Shown: in pieces, positions 220 to 22,258 of the stretch | How the letters are laid out: every line of letters starts with the position of its first letter | Numbering within the stretch: the first letter of the stretch is position 1 | Origin: Dethiobacter sp. | GTDB taxonomy: Bacteria > Bacillota > Dethiobacteria > Dethiobacterales > Dethiobacteraceae | NCBI GenBank assembly: GCA_018333635.1 | Contig: JAGXTL010000043.1 | Span: forward strand, 1 to 64,000 | Length of the DNA: 64,000 nt | Direction: 5' to 3' | Translations under genes and position numbers: made by a program | The notes under the pieces: model-generated | Told to the model about the DNA's origin: nothing | Databases searched by the model: none | What the model saw: the letters and a program-made list of their open reading frames with translations, nothing else

Positions 220-1074
220 GTGAGCTTTTCCGTGGGTGATATTGTGGGACGCAAGTCGTATGGGATGGACATCATGTTTAAAATTATTGCGATTGATGAA
301 AAAAAACAGGAAGCAGTCCTAAAAGGTTTAAATATGAGATTGCTGGCAGATGCTAAACTCTCTGACCTAAAATCTCCCGAGCCTTTGGCTCTGCAAAGTT
401 ATCGCTCCCGTTCGGACCATGCGCAAAAAGAATGTATTACAAAAATTTATAGGCGGCGCGGCTTGGAGAGGGAACAAACCCGTAGTGTCAGCGGCAGGGC
501 AGCAGATGAGTTCTTCGAATTGCCTGGAAAAATTTTGCATTTAGACGGCGACGAAGATTATCTGGCGGAGTGTCTTAAAGCATATCACTCCCTTCAATTG
601 GAGGCAGCAGGTTTTTTCATTCCTGAAAAAGAGCAGCCTCATAAAATTTGGAGCCTTCTGCATAAGCACAGGCCGGATATTTTAATTATGACCGGGCATG
701 ATGCCTATATCAAAACCAAAAAAAACTTTCAGGACCTTAAGAGTTACCGCAATTCACAGTACTTTGTCGCTGCCACTTTAAAGGCAAGGCAATATGAACC
801 GGGAAAAGATGAGTTAGTAATTTTTGCAGGAGCCTGCCAATCGCATTATGAGGCTATTCTGGCTGCAGGTGCCAATTTTGCAAGTTCACCGCAGCGCGTC
901 TTGATCCACGCCCTGGACCCTGTCTTTATTATGGAAAATGTGGCCTATACCTCCATTAATAGTTCAGTCAATATTTATGAAGTTATTAGGCATACAATAA
1001 CAGGGTTAGATGGTATAGGAGGAGTGGAAACACGGGGGAAATTCCGTTTGGGACTGCCCAAATCCCCATATTAG
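220..1074 (+). CDS. yabG: Sporulation-specific protease YabG
   Basis: A 284-residue protein matching the YabG family, the protease that trims spore coat and cortex proteins late in sporulation. The N-terminus (SVGDIVGRKSYGMDI) is a family signature. The motif GHDAY around His160 and GACQSHYE around Cys206 are the conserved His and Cys regions and are likely catalytic. Length is close to the family norm of about 290. It begins with GTG at 220 behind an 'aggaaggcagg' ribosome site. It is immediately upstream of veg, as in Bacillus subtilis and many Clostridia. Family assignment is confident; the catalytic residues are inferred from motif conservation. Confidence 0.93.
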   Translation: MSFSVGDIVGRKSYGMDIMFKIIAIDEKKQEAVLKGLNMRLLADAKLSDLKSPEPLALQSYRSRSDHAQKECITKIYRRRGLEREQTRSVSGRAADEFFELPGKILHLDGDEDYLAECLKAYHSLQLEAAGFFIPEKEQPHKIWSLLHKHRPDILIMTGHDAYIKTKKNFQDLKSYRNSQYFVAATLKARQYEPGKDELVIFAGACQSHYEAILAAGANFASSPQRVLIHALDPVFIMENVAYTSINSSVNIYEVIRHTITGLDGIGGVETRGKFRLGLPKSPY

Positions 1075-1085
1075 ACCTCCTTGCC

Positions 1086-1124
1086 CCCTCACCCTAACCC
1101 TCTCCCAAAGGGAGAGGGGATTTT
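1086..1124. repeat. C-rich/G-rich hairpin repeat downstream of yabG
   Basis: A 9-bp perfect stem (ccctctccc, loop aaa, gggagaggg at 1098-1118), preceded by 'ccctcacccta'. It may serve as the yabG terminator, although the T tract is short. The same C-rich motif recurs at about 50,745-50,782 and, inverted, at 22,281-22,301, so it is a dispersed genomic repeat rather than a gene-specific signal. Confidence 0.6.
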
Positions 1125-1226
1125 CAGGGTATATGTCTCTTAAAAAGTTGGTTCATCAGTTCTTTTTTAGTTGGTTTTGGCAGAATATTTATGGCAAGGA
1201 GTGCAGCTTTCGGACGGAAAAACATC

Positions 1227-1256
1227 TTGACATAAGCTAAAATCTGTTGATATAAT
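1227..1256 (+). promoter_or_regulatory. Sigma-A promoter P1 of veg
   Basis: Consensus -35 TTGACA (1227-1232) and -10 TATAAT (1251-1256), both perfect hexamers, separated by 18 bp. It lies about 75 bp upstream of the veg start. In Bacillus subtilis veg is known for one of the strongest vegetative promoters, which agrees with what is seen here. Confidence 0.8.
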
Positions 1257-1269
1257 TAAGTTTCATAAT

Positions 1270-1298
1270 TTGACAATATTCTTGCTGTATGATAGAAT
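1270..1298 (+). promoter_or_regulatory. Sigma-A promoter P2 of veg
   Basis: A second promoter, TTGACA (1270-1275) with a 17-bp spacer and TAGAAT (1293-1298), lies just downstream of P1 and about 32 bp before the veg start codon. The two together make a tandem vegetative promoter. Confidence 0.75.
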
Positions 1299-1330
1299 AG
1301 CAGTGTAAACAACGTCTGGGGTGATAAGCA

Positions 1331-1597
1331 TTGGCAGCCAGCACTTCCCTACTGCAAATCAGGCGTAGCCTGGAATCCCATGTCGGACAAAAAATTCGTT
1401 TGCGTGCCCATCGTGGGCGTCGGAAAACTCTCGAGAAGGTAGGCGTTCTGGAAAATACGTACCCATCAATTTTTGTCGTAAGAATTGATGAGCCGAATTA
1501 TAACCAGCGTCTTTCCTTCTCATACGCCGATGTCCTGACAGAGACAGTAGAACTGACCCTTGTACACAAAGACGAAAAAACAAAGCATCCTGCCTAA
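1331..1597 (+). CDS. veg: Veg protein
   Basis: An 88-residue protein of the Veg family, recognised by the opening LLQIRRSLESHVGQKIRLRA and by its position after yabG. Veg is a small, abundant protein reported to stimulate biofilm matrix gene expression in Bacillus subtilis. The start is TTG at 1331 behind 'ctggggtgataagca'. Two strong tandem promoters precede it and a hairpin terminator follows within 15 bp, so it is probably transcribed alone. In Bacillus subtilis a small acid-soluble spore protein gene (sspF) follows veg; here that place is taken by an accessory island. Confidence 0.93.
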   Translation: MAASTSLLQIRRSLESHVGQKIRLRAHRGRRKTLEKVGVLENTYPSIFVVRIDEPNYNQRLSFSYADVLTETVELTLVHKDEKTKHPA

Positions 1598-1610
1598 GTC
1601 TAGTATTTAT

Positions 1611-1644
1611 TAAAGAAGCGCAGCTAAATGGCTGCGCTTCTTTA
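1611..1644 (+). terminator. veg terminator
   Basis: Perfect 14-bp inverted repeat (taaagaagcgcagc 1611-1624, loop taaatg, gctgcgcttcttta 1631-1644), A-rich before and T-rich after, so it could work in both directions. Its right arm is also the left copy of the direct repeat that bounds the adjacent island. Confidence 0.85.
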
Positions 1645-1648
1645 ATTG
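1631..1648 (+). repeat. Left copy of 18-bp direct repeat (possible att site)
   Basis: gctgcgcttctttaattg, identical to 4984-5001. It is followed directly by the left member of a 20-bp inverted repeat. Confidence 0.7.
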
Positions 1649-1668
1649 GTGATGAATAAAATATGTCC
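1649..1668 (+). repeat. Left member of 20-bp near-perfect inverted repeat
   Basis: gtgatgaataaaatatgtcc matches the reverse complement of 5004-5023 with a single mismatch. Each member sits just to the right of one copy of the 18-bp direct repeat. Confidence 0.7.
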
Positions 1669-2001
1669 AAACAGTCTCTGCAAGCGCATTATCTGCAAAA
1701 AATACTTCAGTTTTCTCAAGCTGCCGGTAGACTGCGTTGGTTTCGTGCAGAGGATAACAAAAAATTATTGTCTGCCACCAATAAAAAAAGAACGCTAAGC
1801 GTTTTCTTACCAGCTGACGCTGTTTCATATAGACCAGCTCCTTACAGCAACGACACTGCCACAGTTTTCTGGAGATAGCTATCAGAATAAGCACAAAAAA
1901 GTGATATTTAATTTATTTGCGCGATTAGAAATGTTTTTAAAGCATCTACTGTGATATAATTGTAAAAAATATGCTCAGACTAATGTATTGAGGTGAATGG
2001 C
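1669..2001. other. Island left end, no supportable gene
   Basis: About 330 bp without a convincing gene. Short open frames exist on both strands (1663-1878 forward, 1610-1894 reverse), but the reverse one runs through the veg terminator and the island boundary, neither has a good ribosome site, and I recognise no family. Low-complexity AT-rich sequence lies before the HTH gene (about 1900-1985), with a possible -10 box 'tataat' near 1955. Confidence 0.5.
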
Positions 2002-2220
2002 GTGGCGGTAAGTTATAACAAGCTTTGGAAGCTGCTTATCGACAAGAAAATGAAAAAGAAAGAGTTACAGGCTGCCGCAGGCATCAGTTCAAGCCTGATT
2101 ACAAAGCTTGGACATGATGAGCCTGTAACTACGACCGTACTTATGAAAATATGCGCAGCTCTGCAGTGCGATATTGGCGATATTATGGAAATCATTCCTG
2201 ACGGACAGAAAAAATCATGA
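2002..2220 (+). CDS. Small XRE-type HTH transcriptional regulator
   Basis: A 72-residue single-domain Cro/CI-type DNA-binding protein. The helix-turn-helix is visible as KKKELQAAAGISSSLITKL, followed by the recognition-helix extension and the typical tail MKICAALQCDIGDIMEI, as in YozG-like regulators. GTG at 2002 is preferred to GTG at 1993 because 'gaggtg' (1990-1995) is correctly spaced only for the later start. Such regulators commonly head mobile or defence islands, and this is the first gene of the island. Its targets are unknown. Confidence 0.8.
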   Translation: MAVSYNKLWKLLIDKKMKKKELQAAAGISSSLITKLGHDEPVTTTVLMKICAALQCDIGDIMEIIPDGQKKS

Positions 2221-2469
2221 GCACTGTAAAGATAATCACTCAGGCTTAAGAAATCTCTACGTCAGTCGTGAGCCATCGGGCTGTATATCAAAGCGCCGAA
2301 AGAAAGGTATGCCAGCACACAAACTCGAACGACAGTGGCGATCAAAGATTTCCGGGGTTGAGGGGTGGTTGTGGTCTGGAACGGCGGCTTATGCGTAAAG
2401 CGGAGGGAGCGAAATCTACCTAAGTGATATCGACATAGAAACATCATTCTACAGAAAGGAGCGTTGTGA
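2221..2469. other. Intergenic segment in island
   Basis: About 250 bp with no supportable gene. A short forward frame overlaps the end of the HTH gene but has no ribosome site and resembles nothing I know. A good ribosome site (gaaaggag, 2455-2461) at its end serves the broken gene starting at 2470. Confidence 0.4.
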
Positions 2470-2616
2470 ATGCGAAAAGCATACGATACATTTCTCTTAT
2501 CAGAAGTGTCCGCAGGCTTAGCTGCCAAAGCTGGAAGCTTTGAACCGTATCGTTATGAGTGCGCAGAGCTGAATTCTATTTCGACAATAATACAAAGATG
2601 TTTTATCTTGGCTTGA
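2470..2616 (+). pseudogene. 5' fragment of a broken gene
   Basis: ATG at 2470 with a well-placed 'aaaggag' site opens a 48-residue frame (starting MRKAYDTFLLSEVSAG) that soon meets a stop. The larger frame downstream starts inside this one in another phase and has no ribosome site of its own. The simplest reading is that this is the true 5' end of one former gene, now cut off by a frameshift or an internal deletion near 2555-2565. The N-terminal segment is not assigned to a family. Confidence 0.55.
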
Positions 2617-3509
2617 GGTTTAGCGAAGACGAGATATCTGCCTATGAACAACTTTCTACCATTCTCGAGTTGAGAGTTGCGTCTCAGGCTCAGCCGTTCT
2701 ACACATTGCGAATTAACGGGAAAAACTTTTCCGTTGATACTCGGAGATTGATTTCTCTCGATAAATTCTCTTACAGCTATTTTTTGTCAAATACACTAAA
2801 TGGTGTCAAGAGAAAATATGAGGTGTTCAATAACGTCGCAAACAACGCAGCGACTTTCTTTAAGATGCAAGTGGGTAATAGTGGTTATCGAGCTAAATTA
2901 GTTCGTAGTTCAATTCTTTATACAAACACTCCTTACTTCATAGCTGTTCAGAGCCAGTATCGGTCGCCAGTAACTGTTAGTCTACCAAGCGAAATCAAGG
3001 TTGAAAACACTTTTGAATTTGTGACTATGGGGAGAAATTTCTTAGGAAAGGTTCTGACCCCCATTGGAGGATTAGAGCAAACAGGGACGTACAAAGTTGA
3101 CTGCCGTTTCAACAAGGCAGATGTCAGTAGCAAAATAGAAACTGTCGCCAAATGCAAGGGTAAAATTAAGCTGTACAACGAAGACACCGGGTATTTAATC
3201 AGAATGCACCTGATGAAAATGAAAGCCCCGATGTTCCTGAATATAGACCCTCCCTATGTGATAAAGGGTAGCAAACTTTACACGAATTTCTTTACCGAAG
3301 GAGACCATCTAAATCTTCAACGAGTGATTATTAAGTACTTAGATGCAAAGTTCCCGTGGATAATCACCTATGACGATTGTCTTTTGGTGCGGGATTTATA
3401 CCACCGTTTCCATATGGAGGAATACGGGATTACCCATAGCGCTGGCGGTAGTGTGCAAGGCAAAGAGATAGTGATAACGAATCTGACGGTTGATAGATTC
3501 AAGTGGTAG
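2559..3509 (+). pseudogene. Chimeric ORF: unknown domain fused to C-terminal half of a D12-class DNA adenine methyltransferase
   Basis: The 316-residue frame has two unrelated parts. Residues 1 to about 166 are an uncharacterised domain (FYFDNNTKMFYLGLRF near the start). From about residue 167 the sequence reads as the C-terminal half of a D12-class N6-adenine DNA methyltransferase: PIGGLEQTGTYKVDCRFNK, the catalytic DPPY at 230-233, KGSKLYTNFF, and PWIITYDD near 266-273. The SAM-binding FxGxG motif and target-recognition region of a complete enzyme are absent. There is no ribosome site at the GTG 2559 start. I infer two deletions, near 2560 and near 3057, leaving an inactive fusion. The methyltransferase identity rests on motif recognition, not on a search. 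Confidence 0.65.
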
Positions 3510-3522
3510 GAGGATATCAATT

Positions 3523-4905
3523 ATGACAACACTAAATCAGCTTCTCATAGCAGAAGCAACCGAATACGAATTCAAGTCTGCTGTTGAGTCTAATAAGCCA
3601 CGTGGTTGGCTGAAGACCGTAAGCGCATTCGCCAATGGCGTGGGTGGTAGTATATACTTCGGCGTGTCCGACGACGGTGTTGCAATCGGATTGGATAACG
3701 CCCAGAAAGCCGCAGAACAAATCAGCGAACTTATAAAGGTAAGAATCGAGCCTGCCGTCAAAAATATTGTGCTTGAACCGCATTGTGTCGACGGCAAGGA
3801 AATTCTCCGAGTACAGATTTCTGGCGGAGCAAACACGCCATATTACTACACTGGCGATGGCACAAAGATTGCCTATTATCGCATCGGAAACGAATCCGCA
3901 CAAGCGCCTGCCGCTGTTCTTAACGAATTGCTCCTGAAAGGGCTTCACCAGACCTTTGACGCCCTTGAAACGAAGTATCGGTTATCAGATTACAGTTATA
4001 CGTTATTTGAGGCTACGTACAAGCAAAAGACGGGATTTGCCATTGATAAGCCGCGGGACTACCGCTCTTTCGGAATGTTGATAGGCGACGACACGCTGAC
4101 TTATGTCGGTGCGCTTTTTGCCGACCAATGTCCGATTTACCAGTCGAGGGTATTCTGCACCCGTTGGAACGGACTGAAAAAGGGCGGGCTTTATGTTGAT
4201 GCTCTCGACAATGATGAATTTCAGAGTAATGTTATTTCCCTGCTCACGGACGCGCTGAAATTCGTGCGTCACAACTCGTCCGTCAAATGGAAAAAGACCG
4301 GCACCGGAAGAATTGAAATGCCCGACTATCCGTCTGAGGCTGTTCACGAGGCTCTGGTTAACGCACTCGTCCACCGCGACTACATGATTCAGGGTAGCGA
4401 AATCCACGTCGATATGTACGACGACCGCCTTGAGATAGCTTCGCCCGGCGGGATGCCTGACGGCAAACGAATTCAAGACTTGAACATTGACAATATTCCG
4501 TCAATCCGCAGAAACCCTATCATCTGCGACCTTTTCAGCCGTCTGAAACTAATGGAGCGTCGTGGAAGCGGTCTGCGTAAAATCATTGACCAGTACCCTG
4601 AAGATGCCGTGCCTTTGTTCCGTTCCACAGAACAGTCGTTTGTCGTAACTTTGAAAAATTTGAATTACGCCAAACTATCTACGCCACATGGCGATAAAGT
4701 TGGCGTAGATAACGGCGACGAAAATAATGTAACTTTGATTTTGAATGCAATATCTGAAGACCCAAAAATCACGCAAAAGAATATCGCTATCAAAACCGGC
4801 TTATCGACACGCACGGTATCGAGAGAAATCAGAGAACTCCGTGATACAGGCGTCATTCGGCGCATTGGGTCGGATAGGTCAGGATATTGGGAAATTGTTA
4901 AATAG
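3523..4905 (+). CDS. AlbA_2 (Schlafen-like) ATP-binding transcriptional regulator
   Basis: A 460-residue protein with the architecture AlbA_2 domain (about residues 5-125, with EYEFKSAVE and FANGVGGSIYFGVSDDG), a GHKL-type ATPase-like C-terminal module (HEALVNALVHRDY, about 275-290, and RRGSGLRKI, about 347-355), and a winged helix at the end (QKNIAIKTGLSTRTVSREIR). The family is often annotated as putative transcriptional regulator or ATP-binding protein, and several members sit in phage-defence islands. ATG 3523 follows 'taggagga' and is chosen over an upstream TTG at 3490. It starts 14 bp after the methyltransferase chimera, so the two were probably co-transcribed. It appears intact. Confidence 0.82.
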   Translation: MTTLNQLLIAEATEYEFKSAVESNKPRGWLKTVSAFANGVGGSIYFGVSDDGVAIGLDNAQKAAEQISELIKVRIEPAVKNIVLEPHCVDGKEILRVQISGGANTPYYYTGDGTKIAYYRIGNESAQAPAAVLNELLLKGLHQTFDALETKYRLSDYSYTLFEATYKQKTGFAIDKPRDYRSFGMLIGDDTLTYVGALFADQCPIYQSRVFCTRWNGLKKGGLYVDALDNDEFQSNVISLLTDALKFVRHNSSVKWKKTGTGRIEMPDYPSEAVHEALVNALVHRDYMIQGSEIHVDMYDDRLEIASPGGMPDGKRIQDLNIDNIPSIRRNPIICDLFSRLKLMERRGSGLRKIIDQYPEDAVPLFRSTEQSFVVTLKNLNYAKLSTPHGDKVGVDNGDENNVTLILNAISEDPKITQKNIAIKTGLSTRTVSREIRELRDTGVIRRIGSDRSGYWEIVK

Positions 4906-4983
4906 AAAATCGGCTCTCTCCTGCATTTCCATATCGGTTTGGAGTATGGCTCAACAAGTTTCTCTATTGATCCGCGCCATTTT

Positions 4984-5001
4984 GCTGCGCTTCTTTAATT
5001 G
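4984..5001 (+). repeat. Right copy of 18-bp direct repeat (possible att site)
   Basis: Identical to 1631-1648, but here only one arm of the veg-terminator hairpin is present, so this copy does not form the terminator. Confidence 0.7.
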
Positions 5002-5003
5002 AA

Positions 5004-5023
5004 GGACATATCTTATTCATCAC
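5004..5023 (-). repeat. Right member of 20-bp inverted repeat
   Basis: ggacatatcttattcatcac, the reverse complement of 1649-1668 apart from one base. It lies outside the right direct repeat, whereas its partner lies inside the left one. Confidence 0.7.
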
Positions 5024-5175
5024 TGCATAGATATTTAAAGATTTCAGTGTCATCTAGACACACTTTGGCAGGTTAAAACATATAATTAAGCGGGTGATGC
5101 CTTGTGAAAGGAGCGTGGGACACTTTTCCGTTATTTGCATATAGTGTAGGAAATTAACTGAAGGGAGGATGAAGC

Positions 5176-6906
5176 ATGGGTAAAGATGATCACGTTAAGC
5201 CACTCGAATGCATAACCGATCTACTGAAAGTGGAGCAGGTTGTGGGTGAAAATGCTACGCAGACCTCTGTAATCCGCGATATTACCCTGCCGGGGAGAGT
5301 AAGAAAAATCACCGAAGTAGATACTACTCTTCGTGATGTGCGGGGGCGCGTGATTGAAAACAAAGTTGTTGTAGAAGGGATCGTCCATAAACAGATTTTC
5401 TACGTAGATGATGATACCGGCCAGTTGAAGGAGTTTACCGTGCCGGATGAGCGCTTCGTGCAATTTGTGGACGTTCCCGGTGCACTGCCTGGCATGAATG
5501 TGCAAATACATTCCAGGGTAGAATTTGTGGGTCACGATTTTATTCGTGAAATTTGCTTCGGCCACAAGAAGCCTCATAAAGATAAAAATGGCCACCACGA
5601 CAAAGATGACGACAATGAGTATGATAACATTGGCAAAGATCACGATGAGCATCATGACAAAAATCATCACGGCAAAGATCACGATGAGCATCATGATAAA
5701 AATCATCATGGCAAAGACTGCCACAAGGGCCATCACTACGATAAAGTTGAGTCGCTTTATCGTCAGACGGTTATACTGGAAATTTTTGCGAAAGTGACTG
5801 AGTCAATCCAGTTGAACGTTGTCGTCGATGTGGTGGGAATCGATGAAAACAGAATTCTGACTGAGCTTTTAAAAGTGGAAAGTGTGATCGGAGAAGGTGC
5901 ATCCCAGGTAGCTGTAATTGCAGACATTAGGTTTAAGAGGCCCGCAAGAAAGATTAAAAATATAGATACTGAAATTCGCAACTTGGTCTCGAGGGTAATC
6001 GAGGGCAAAGTAGTTGTAGAGGGCGTACTGCATAAGCAGATCTTCTTTGTGGGCTTAGATAACGACATTGTTTTTGAAGTGTCCGTCGATGAAAAGTTCA
6101 CTCACTTTGTTGATATCCCTGGTGCATTTCCGGGCGCCAATGTGCAAGTCTATCCACGGGTTGAATTTGTTAATGTGCAAATAGATGCTTACGACCCTGC
6201 TTTCGGCAAACAGACTGCCATCATTGACATCTTTGTCAAGGTGACGGAGACTGTGCAGGTTGATGTAGTCACCGACATCAAGGATGTAAAAGTCACAAAA
6301 GAGCTGCTAAAAGTGTCCCAGGTTGTCGGCGAAGGAGTTCGTCAGCAAACTATTGTGGCAGATCTTACGGCTCCGGCTCCAGCCAGAAAAATTGCCGGCC
6401 CGCCAGACACTCGTTTTGATAACATCGTGACTAGGGTCATAGAGAATAAAGTTGTTATCGAAGGAGATTTAGTCAAACAAGTATACTTCGTTCGTGAAGG
6501 TGATTTTCCTGAAGTGCTGGAGTTTGAAGTCCGCGAACACTTCACCAGTTTTATAGATATACCTGGAGCTTTGCCGGGGCAGGTTGTCCAGGTTTATCCG
6601 CGGGTAGAGTTTACGGATTTTGAAATTGATCCCTACGACCGCACGCAGATTCGCCAGACTTCTGTGATTGAAATCTTTGTAAAAGTTACGGAGTTTGTGC
6701 AGATTGAAGTAGTTACTGATTGTGATGTGAAGCCGGTTCCTGCCGTGACCGTCTATGTCGTACAGAAAGGCGACACGCTCTTTAAAATTGCCATACGCTT
6801 TAATACCACAGTAGCAGCCATCCTAGCGGCAAATCCAGAAATTAAAGACCCGAACCTGATTTTCCCGGGACAGAAGATTCTTATCCCCGCACCACCAAAG
6901 GGATAA
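5176..6906 (+). CDS. Triple SPOCS-domain (DUF3794) protein with His-rich insert and C-terminal LysM
   Basis: A 576-residue protein with three SPOCS (DUF3794) repeats, each recognisable by 'ELLKV..VVGE' at its start, 'VI..KVVVEG...KQ.FFV' in the middle and 'F..FVD(I/V)PGA.PG..VQ...RVEF' near its end (about residues 15-215, 225-375 and 376-520). A LysM domain (YVVQKGDTLFKIAIRFNTT) closes the protein. Within the first repeat, residues about 130-192 form a His/Asp/Lys-rich insert built from a 13-residue unit repeated in tandem. SPOCS-LysM proteins such as SipL of Clostridioides difficile bind SpoIVA at the forespore surface. ATG 5176 follows 'gaagggagg'. It is probably a spore coat or outer-layer protein and a paralogue of the next gene. 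Confidence 0.85.
   Translation: MGKDDHVKPLECITDLLKVEQVVGENATQTSVIRDITLPGRVRKITEVDTTLRDVRGRVIENKVVVEGIVHKQIFYVDDDTGQLKEFTVPDERFVQFVDVPGALPGMNVQIHSRVEFVGHDFIREICFGHKKPHKDKNGHHDKDDDNEYDNIGKDHDEHHDKNHHGKDHDEHHDKNHHGKDCHKGHHYDKVESLYRQTVILEIFAKVTESIQLNVVVDVVGIDENRILTELLKVESVIGEGASQVAVIADIRFKRPARKIKNIDTEIRNLVSRVIEGKVVVEGVLHKQIFFVGLDNDIVFEVSVDEKFTHFVDIPGAFPGANVQVYPRVEFVNVQIDAYDPAFGKQTAIIDIFVKVTETVQVDVVTDIKDVKVTKELLKVSQVVGEGVRQQTIVADLTAPAPARKIAGPPDTRFDNIVTRVIENKVVIEGDLVKQVYFVREGDFPEVLEFEVREHFTSFIDIPGALPGQVVQVYPRVEFTDFEIDPYDRTQIRQTSVIEIFVKVTEFVQIEVVTDCDVKPVPAVTVYVVQKGDTLFKIAIRFNTTVAAILAANPEIKDPNLIFPGQKILIPAPPKG
5632..5730 (+). repeat. 39-bp tandem repeat encoding His-rich units
   Basis: Two nearly identical 39-bp units (5632-5670 and 5671-5709) and a partial third (from 5710) encode the peptide GKDHDEHHDKNHH. 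The two full copies differ at only a few bases, so the duplication is recent or maintained. It stays in frame with the SPOCS gene. Confidence 0.85.
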
Positions 6907-21961: not shown

Positions 21962-21984
21962 ATTTCAACATCAAATCCTATAGA

Positions 21985-22258
21985 CAGTGATGGAGAAAAG
22001 TAAGGCATTTACGGTCTCACAGGGAGGGAGCGCCATAGATTGAGAGCGTCCCGGATACGTTTTGCCCCAAGTTCCCTCCGGAGTCGCAGGCTGAACTGCA
22101 GAGTAGGCCGAGCCGGGAAGCCCTCCCGTTATCCTGGGACAGGTCTCGGAAAACGTGATGTTTTCCCGCATCTGCGATTGAGTGAGCGCATCTGTGCGCT
22201 AAATTGGGTGGTACCGCGGAAGATACCCCGTCCCTTTTCTGGGTCGGGTTTTTTATTT
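21985..22258 (+). ncRNA. T-box riboswitch (probably tRNA-Phe) controlling pheA
   Basis: The conserved T-box sequence (gggtggtaccgcgg, 22206-22219) precedes a GC-rich hairpin with a T-rich tail (about 22225-22258), the alternative terminator. Upstream, 'gatggaga..agta' (about 21988-22004) fits the K-turn and AG-bulge region of stem I. A candidate specifier TTC (22072-22074) would read tRNA-Phe. The bulge TGGT pairs with ACCA, the 3' end of a tRNA with discriminator A, as in tRNA-Phe. Uncharged tRNA-Phe would promote read-through into the phenylalanine gene downstream. The T-box is certain; the exact specifier is a suggestion. Confidence 0.92.

Follow-up and report, generated by a model that had tools for sequence, protein, structure and literature searches.

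DNA duplication associated with inversion (DDAI) is on record in bacteria (Furuta et al. 2011, as cited in PMC8963470), and inversions produced by staggered breaks or template switching, with inverted duplications, have been described in Drosophila (PMC7584159). For IS1272, the described process is an inverted-repeat-replacing transposition (PMC5678879). The locus presented here resembles DDAI, as outlined in PMC8963470, in that a segment is inverted and breakpoint sequence is duplicated in inverted form at the other end. It differs from the cases as outlined there in having duplications of only 20-24 nt, a segment of about 3.35 kb that contains a foreign insert, and a terminator palindrome as one of the breakpoints. 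The end pattern equals that of the Drosophila inversions, but the locus is bacterial, far smaller, and has 16 terminator nt on an unexpected side.

A derived insert between veg and a coat gene

The window, the whole 64,000-nucleotide stretch that was analysed, lies on contig C85 of the genome of an uncultured Dethiobacter-like bacterium (G000; 2.39 Mb in 137 contigs, a metagenome-type assembly). The corresponding loci of relatives, found with the coat protein, come from metagenome-assembled genomes, including the genus mates G001 and G002. Spacers were read in 13 relatives, and in all of them the LysM/SipL coat gene comes 203-378 bp after veg with no island in between; the 3.35 kb is therefore derived and unique to this genome. 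The features of the locus are as follows, with the strand where one is assigned.

1331-1597, plus strand: veg, the left flanking gene (PF06257, E 6e-29; 91% DNA identity to G001)
1609-1648: veg terminator palindrome (T) plus TTG (inverted-repeat search and folding; orthologous hairpin at equal distance from veg in G001 and G002)
1609-1632: B1, the left arm and loop of T
1631-1648: left copy of the 18-bp direct repeat
1649-1668, minus strand: B2', inverted copy of the ancestral spacer end (20-mer native at 5004-5023, also in G001 and G002)
1649-1788 (inner edge approximate), minus strand: S', the inverted ancestral veg-coat spacer (reversed matches to G001 and G002; shuffles)
1784-1808: T2, a second terminator-like hairpin, approximate inner edge of S' (similar to other sequences of the genus)
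1993-2220, plus strand: small Cro/C1 helix-turn-helix gene (HTH_26) that looks intact (PF13443, E 3e-22; distant homologues in G001 and G002)
2470-2568, plus strand: DruB fragment 1, profile positions 1-33 of 477, followed by a deletion and frame change (PADLOC PDLC00003, E 2e-13)
2565-3060, plus strand: DruB fragment 2, profile positions 86-248 (PADLOC PDLC00003, E 2e-72)
3060-3509, plus strand: C-terminal half of a D12 adenine methylase, in frame with DruB (PD-Lambda-5_B 133-272 of 291, E 4e-42)
3523-4905, plus strand: full-length AlbA_2/HATPase_c_4/winged-HTH protein that looks intact (PF04326, PF13749; phrog_12156 over 8-459)
4911-4983, plus strand: repeat confined to the genus, at the insert's right end (79-85% matches on contigs C81 of G000, C32 of G001 and C7 of G002)
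4976-5001: right terminator fragment, with B1' (inverted 1609-1632) and the right 18-bp repeat copy (adjoins the genus repeat, as on C81 of G000)
5004-5023, plus strand: B2, the ancestral spacer end at its original position (TGCATAGATATTTAAAG comes next, as it does in relatives)
5176-6906, plus strand: SipL/LysM spore-coat-type gene, the right flank (PF12673, PF01476; directly after veg in relatives)

The patch of about 3.3 kb places broken and accessory genes beside a housekeeping gene. Its 3.1 kb of defence-type genes, foreign and in part broken, which separates T from the coat gene, is derived; the initial annotation, which took the segment for a decayed insert, is borne out by its absence from all relatives that have the locus. 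The open reading frame 2559-3509 is a chimera in which DruB 86-248 runs on in frame into the C-terminal half of the D12 methylase, and DruB 1-33 (2470-2568) precedes it out of frame. The chimeric reading frame in 2470-3509 was formed by deletions, and the DruB-methylase fusion shows that the insert has undergone further deletions. The methylase part, whose motif I half is missing, encodes a product (3060-3509) that is 40% identical to residues 149-284 of the intact 292-aa methylase of G002, and DruB has no match in the 60 relatives. With DruB broken into two fragments, no match for a DruA remnant in 2221-2469 and no other Druantia partner gene recognised in the insert, what is left is a remnant of Druantia and not an intact druB with its partners. 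No viral relatives of the cargo were found. What the insert preserves is the remains of defence-type genes that came from elsewhere.

Outside the insert, the coat gene contains a His/Asp/Lys-rich tandem stretch (HHDKNHHGKD) at 5593-5740, and a T-box leader (RF00230) lies at 21978-22238. A CCCTCACCCTAACCCTCTCCC...GGGAGAGGGGA repeat at 1086-1120 also occurs twice in locus L054, and spacers of G001 and G003 contain similar forms of it.

Repeats and terminator at the insert ends

The 18-bp exact direct repeat, GCTGCGCTTCTTTAATTG, has copies at 1631-1648 and 4984-5001, and a 20-bp inverted repeat with one mismatch pairs 1649-1668 with 5004-5023; both were reported in the initial annotation and are confirmed at these coordinates. 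The longest direct repeat and the longest exact inverted repeat were each 10-15 nt in 100 dinucleotide shuffles of 1000-6500, so that 18 nt exceeds chance. The left direct copy does lie inside the veg terminator, as proposed; a very stable hairpin forms at 1609-1646, 12 nt past the veg stop (-26.2 kcal/mol, z -8.3). Further copies of either repeat, whose possible recurrence had been raised, were searched for in this genome, and only chance-level matches were obtained.

A further inverted pair, absent from the initial annotation, joins 1609-1632 to 4976-4999 (24 nt, 96%) and matters more than the 20-bp pair. The right-hand terminator fragment matches T better in this inverted sense than directly. 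Because the terminator is palindromic, the "direct" and "inverted" readings of the fragment compete, and half of a palindrome that is copied inverted also reads as a direct repeat, which would explain the 18-bp repeat. The two inverted pairs stand non-nested, in the order B1-B2'...B1'-B2, and gene reading and profile searches of 1649-5003 revealed neither an integrase nor a transposase, in keeping with the earlier impression that none was visible. With repeats of this geometry, correctly judged at the outset to be unfit for a simple transposon, and no recognisable transposase, the segment does not qualify as a terminal-inverted-repeat transposon.

The ancestral spacer is reversed

Both flanks are collinear with G001, to 1646 on the left and again from 5004. 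After its terminator, G001 has a spacer whose 58-bp match ends in GGACATATTTTATTCATC, with CTTGCATAGATATTTAAAG coming next; the spacer of G002 is a longer version, with one mismatch in the GGACATATTTTATTCATC end. To the right of the island, from 5004, GGACATATCTTATTCATCAC-TGCATAGATATTTAAAG is in place and the remaining spacer is missing. The missing part is found inverted at 1649-1788, immediately after the terminator, and in reverse it is 96.6% identical to G001 over 58 bp and about 71% identical to G002 over 140 bp. Reversed 1649-1708 scores 106 against G001 (z 31.7; shuffle maximum 33), whereas the forward sense is at chance; the matches to G002, of 1649-1708 (z 18.2) and of 1709-1800 (z 11.3), are likewise confined to the reverse sense. 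Similarity of 1801-1990 to the relatives' spacer is at chance level, and since the spacers of G001 and G002 differ, the 5' limit of S' is approximate. S' was also considered as a real gene and rejected, the matches being weak and degenerate only. The T2 region (1784-1820) carries CAGCTGACGC and is 89% identical over 36 nt to contig C87 of G001, perhaps as another short dispersed repeat.

The elements now stand in the order B1, second arm, B2', S', foreign genes, genus repeat, B1', TGAA, B2 and coat gene. Alignment with the relatives shows that the locus formerly ran from veg through T and a spacer (S) ending in B2 to the coat gene, as it does in them.

A probable inversion with duplicated breakpoints

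S, either together with the insert or as the insert arrived, was probably inverted between T and B2, in a non-site-specific event that duplicated the breakpoints. In this lineage the 3.1 kb of foreign genes, with the genus-specific repeat at one end, ended up between T and the coat gene, presumably by insertion. The insert together with S, or S alone during insertion, would then have been turned round, with the ends of the event in palindromic T and in B2. B2 would have been copied, so as to stand in its native place and inverted beside T, and the T arm plus loop would likewise have been copied, to stand by veg and inverted beside B2. Such a footprint would result from staggered breaks that were filled in, and equally from template switching with short hairpin matches as primers; an integrase would not be needed. 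The order B1-B2'-(insert)-B1'-B2 accounts for the "unusual geometry" remarked on in the initial annotation, whose passing suggestion that an inversion might once have occurred at the terminator palindrome was right in substance.

The locus has the two marks of a DDAI-type inversion: 1649-1788 is reversed relative to the ancestral order in G001 and G002, and breakpoint sequence is duplicated inverted at the other end, over 20 nt for B2/B2' and, with a reservation about 16 nt of the terminator, over 24 nt for B1/B1'. Some details speak against a pure staggered-break inversion. The second arm (1633-1648, 16 nt) stays on the left where it would be expected on the right, and TGAA has been added between B1' and B2. 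In addition, GCCATTT in B1' may belong to the genus repeat and not to T. The B2 copy in S' is preceded by TTT, as in G001, and native B2 by AA, as in G002, so that two events or two sources are possible. The insert occurs in one genome, and no intermediate without the inversion is known.

A genus-restricted repeat and the alternative explanations

The repeat at 4911-4983 is present in three of the 60 genomes searched (G000, G001 and G002), all of one genus, and had no match in an Rfam search. It was considered as an integron attC site and rejected: canonical core sites are absent by eye, and single-stranded DNA folding is no better than in shuffles for two of three copies. Copies lie near intrinsic terminators in the window (4911-4983), in L054 (1501-1556), in L051 (1490-1559 and 2466-2495) and in L053 (1501-1544), and the second L051 copy adjoins a group II intron match (RF02001).

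Among the alternatives, the one that survives best is that this repeat is mobile, inserting with cargo at terminators through a GTGCC-TTT end, and that the spacer was rearranged later. On contig C81 of G000 the GTGCCTTT end of a copy adjoins CCGGCTTCTTTTATG, the latter half of a terminator which G001, G002 and G003 possess whole and repeat-free, just as the end of the window copy adjoins half of the veg terminator; and two copies flank a toxin-antitoxin-like pair on C32 of G001 (L051). The C81 junction resembles IS1272 (PMC5678879) in that a possibly mobile end stands in for part of a stem-loop and no target sequence is duplicated. Unlike IS1272, the repeat has no recognisable transposase gene beside any of its copies; a profile scan of the window insert found no IS1182-family transposase, and L051, L053 and L054 were read, outside that scan. 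Half-terminator junctions fit at two sites, among five good copies of which two were compared with empty sites, but a weaker copy on C97 of G002 lacks the half terminator, and such insertion alone leaves inverted S' unexplained. As an account of the whole locus it is unlikely. The second copy that adjoins a half terminator is nevertheless a real but unproven lead, and a terminator-targeting element comparable in effect to IS1272, seen at two sites and with no transposase found, is possible.

Somewhat less likely still is that S and B2 were duplicated in inverted form and native S was lost when the insert arrived, so that insert and spacer never turned together. Only S' and B2 would be re-used, and the foreign genes could have had either orientation beforehand, but an extra deletion exactly up to B2 is required. 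A fuller version of the mobile repeat is doubtful: it would enter the loops of intrinsic terminators, take half of the hairpin, supply a terminator of its own and bring defence or toxin-antitoxin genes along, with a recombinase moving it and the inverted spacer as a by-product. We consider it slightly more doubtful that contigs were misjoined at the terminator palindrome: the genome is in 137 contigs, its genus mates are metagenome-assembled and each of the two junctions falls in a palindrome or short repeat, but assembly k-mers usually exceed the 18-24 nt of these repeats, the flanks on both sides are collinear with G001 and the AlbA_2 gene is intact.

The att-like insertion first proposed, in which an island bounded by direct repeats entered the veg terminator with an integrase acting in trans, is very unlikely and already contradicted as a single event. 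The exact 18-bp repeat at both ends, one copy within the terminator, favours it; against it, the spacer of the ancestral locus lies reversed just inside the left repeat, the inverted sense gives the right fragment its better match to T, the repeat was not found elsewhere in the genome and no integrase was recognised in the insert. Nor was the predicted empty site, 1648 joined to 5002, found in relatives, which have spacer there; the reversed-spacer arrangement aligns with a score of 298 against 243 for the empty site in G001, and 324 against 100 in G002. With single-att empty site and integrase both absent, the segment does not qualify as an integrase-borne island. A programmed segment flipped by a recombinase is extremely improbable, since the two inverted pairs that flank the segment lack the required nesting, consist of host spacer and terminator sequence, and accompany no recognisable recombinase.

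Implications

The repeats at the ends of the patch are thus better attributed, with fair though not high confidence, to a small local DNA inversion than to site-specific integration, and the locus is an instructive but ordinary genome scar. Repeats that look like an integration site can arise from local inversion at a palindromic terminator, and it is comparison with relatives that decides. The linked repeat, which adjoins half-terminators at two loci, offers a lead to an element that targets terminators.
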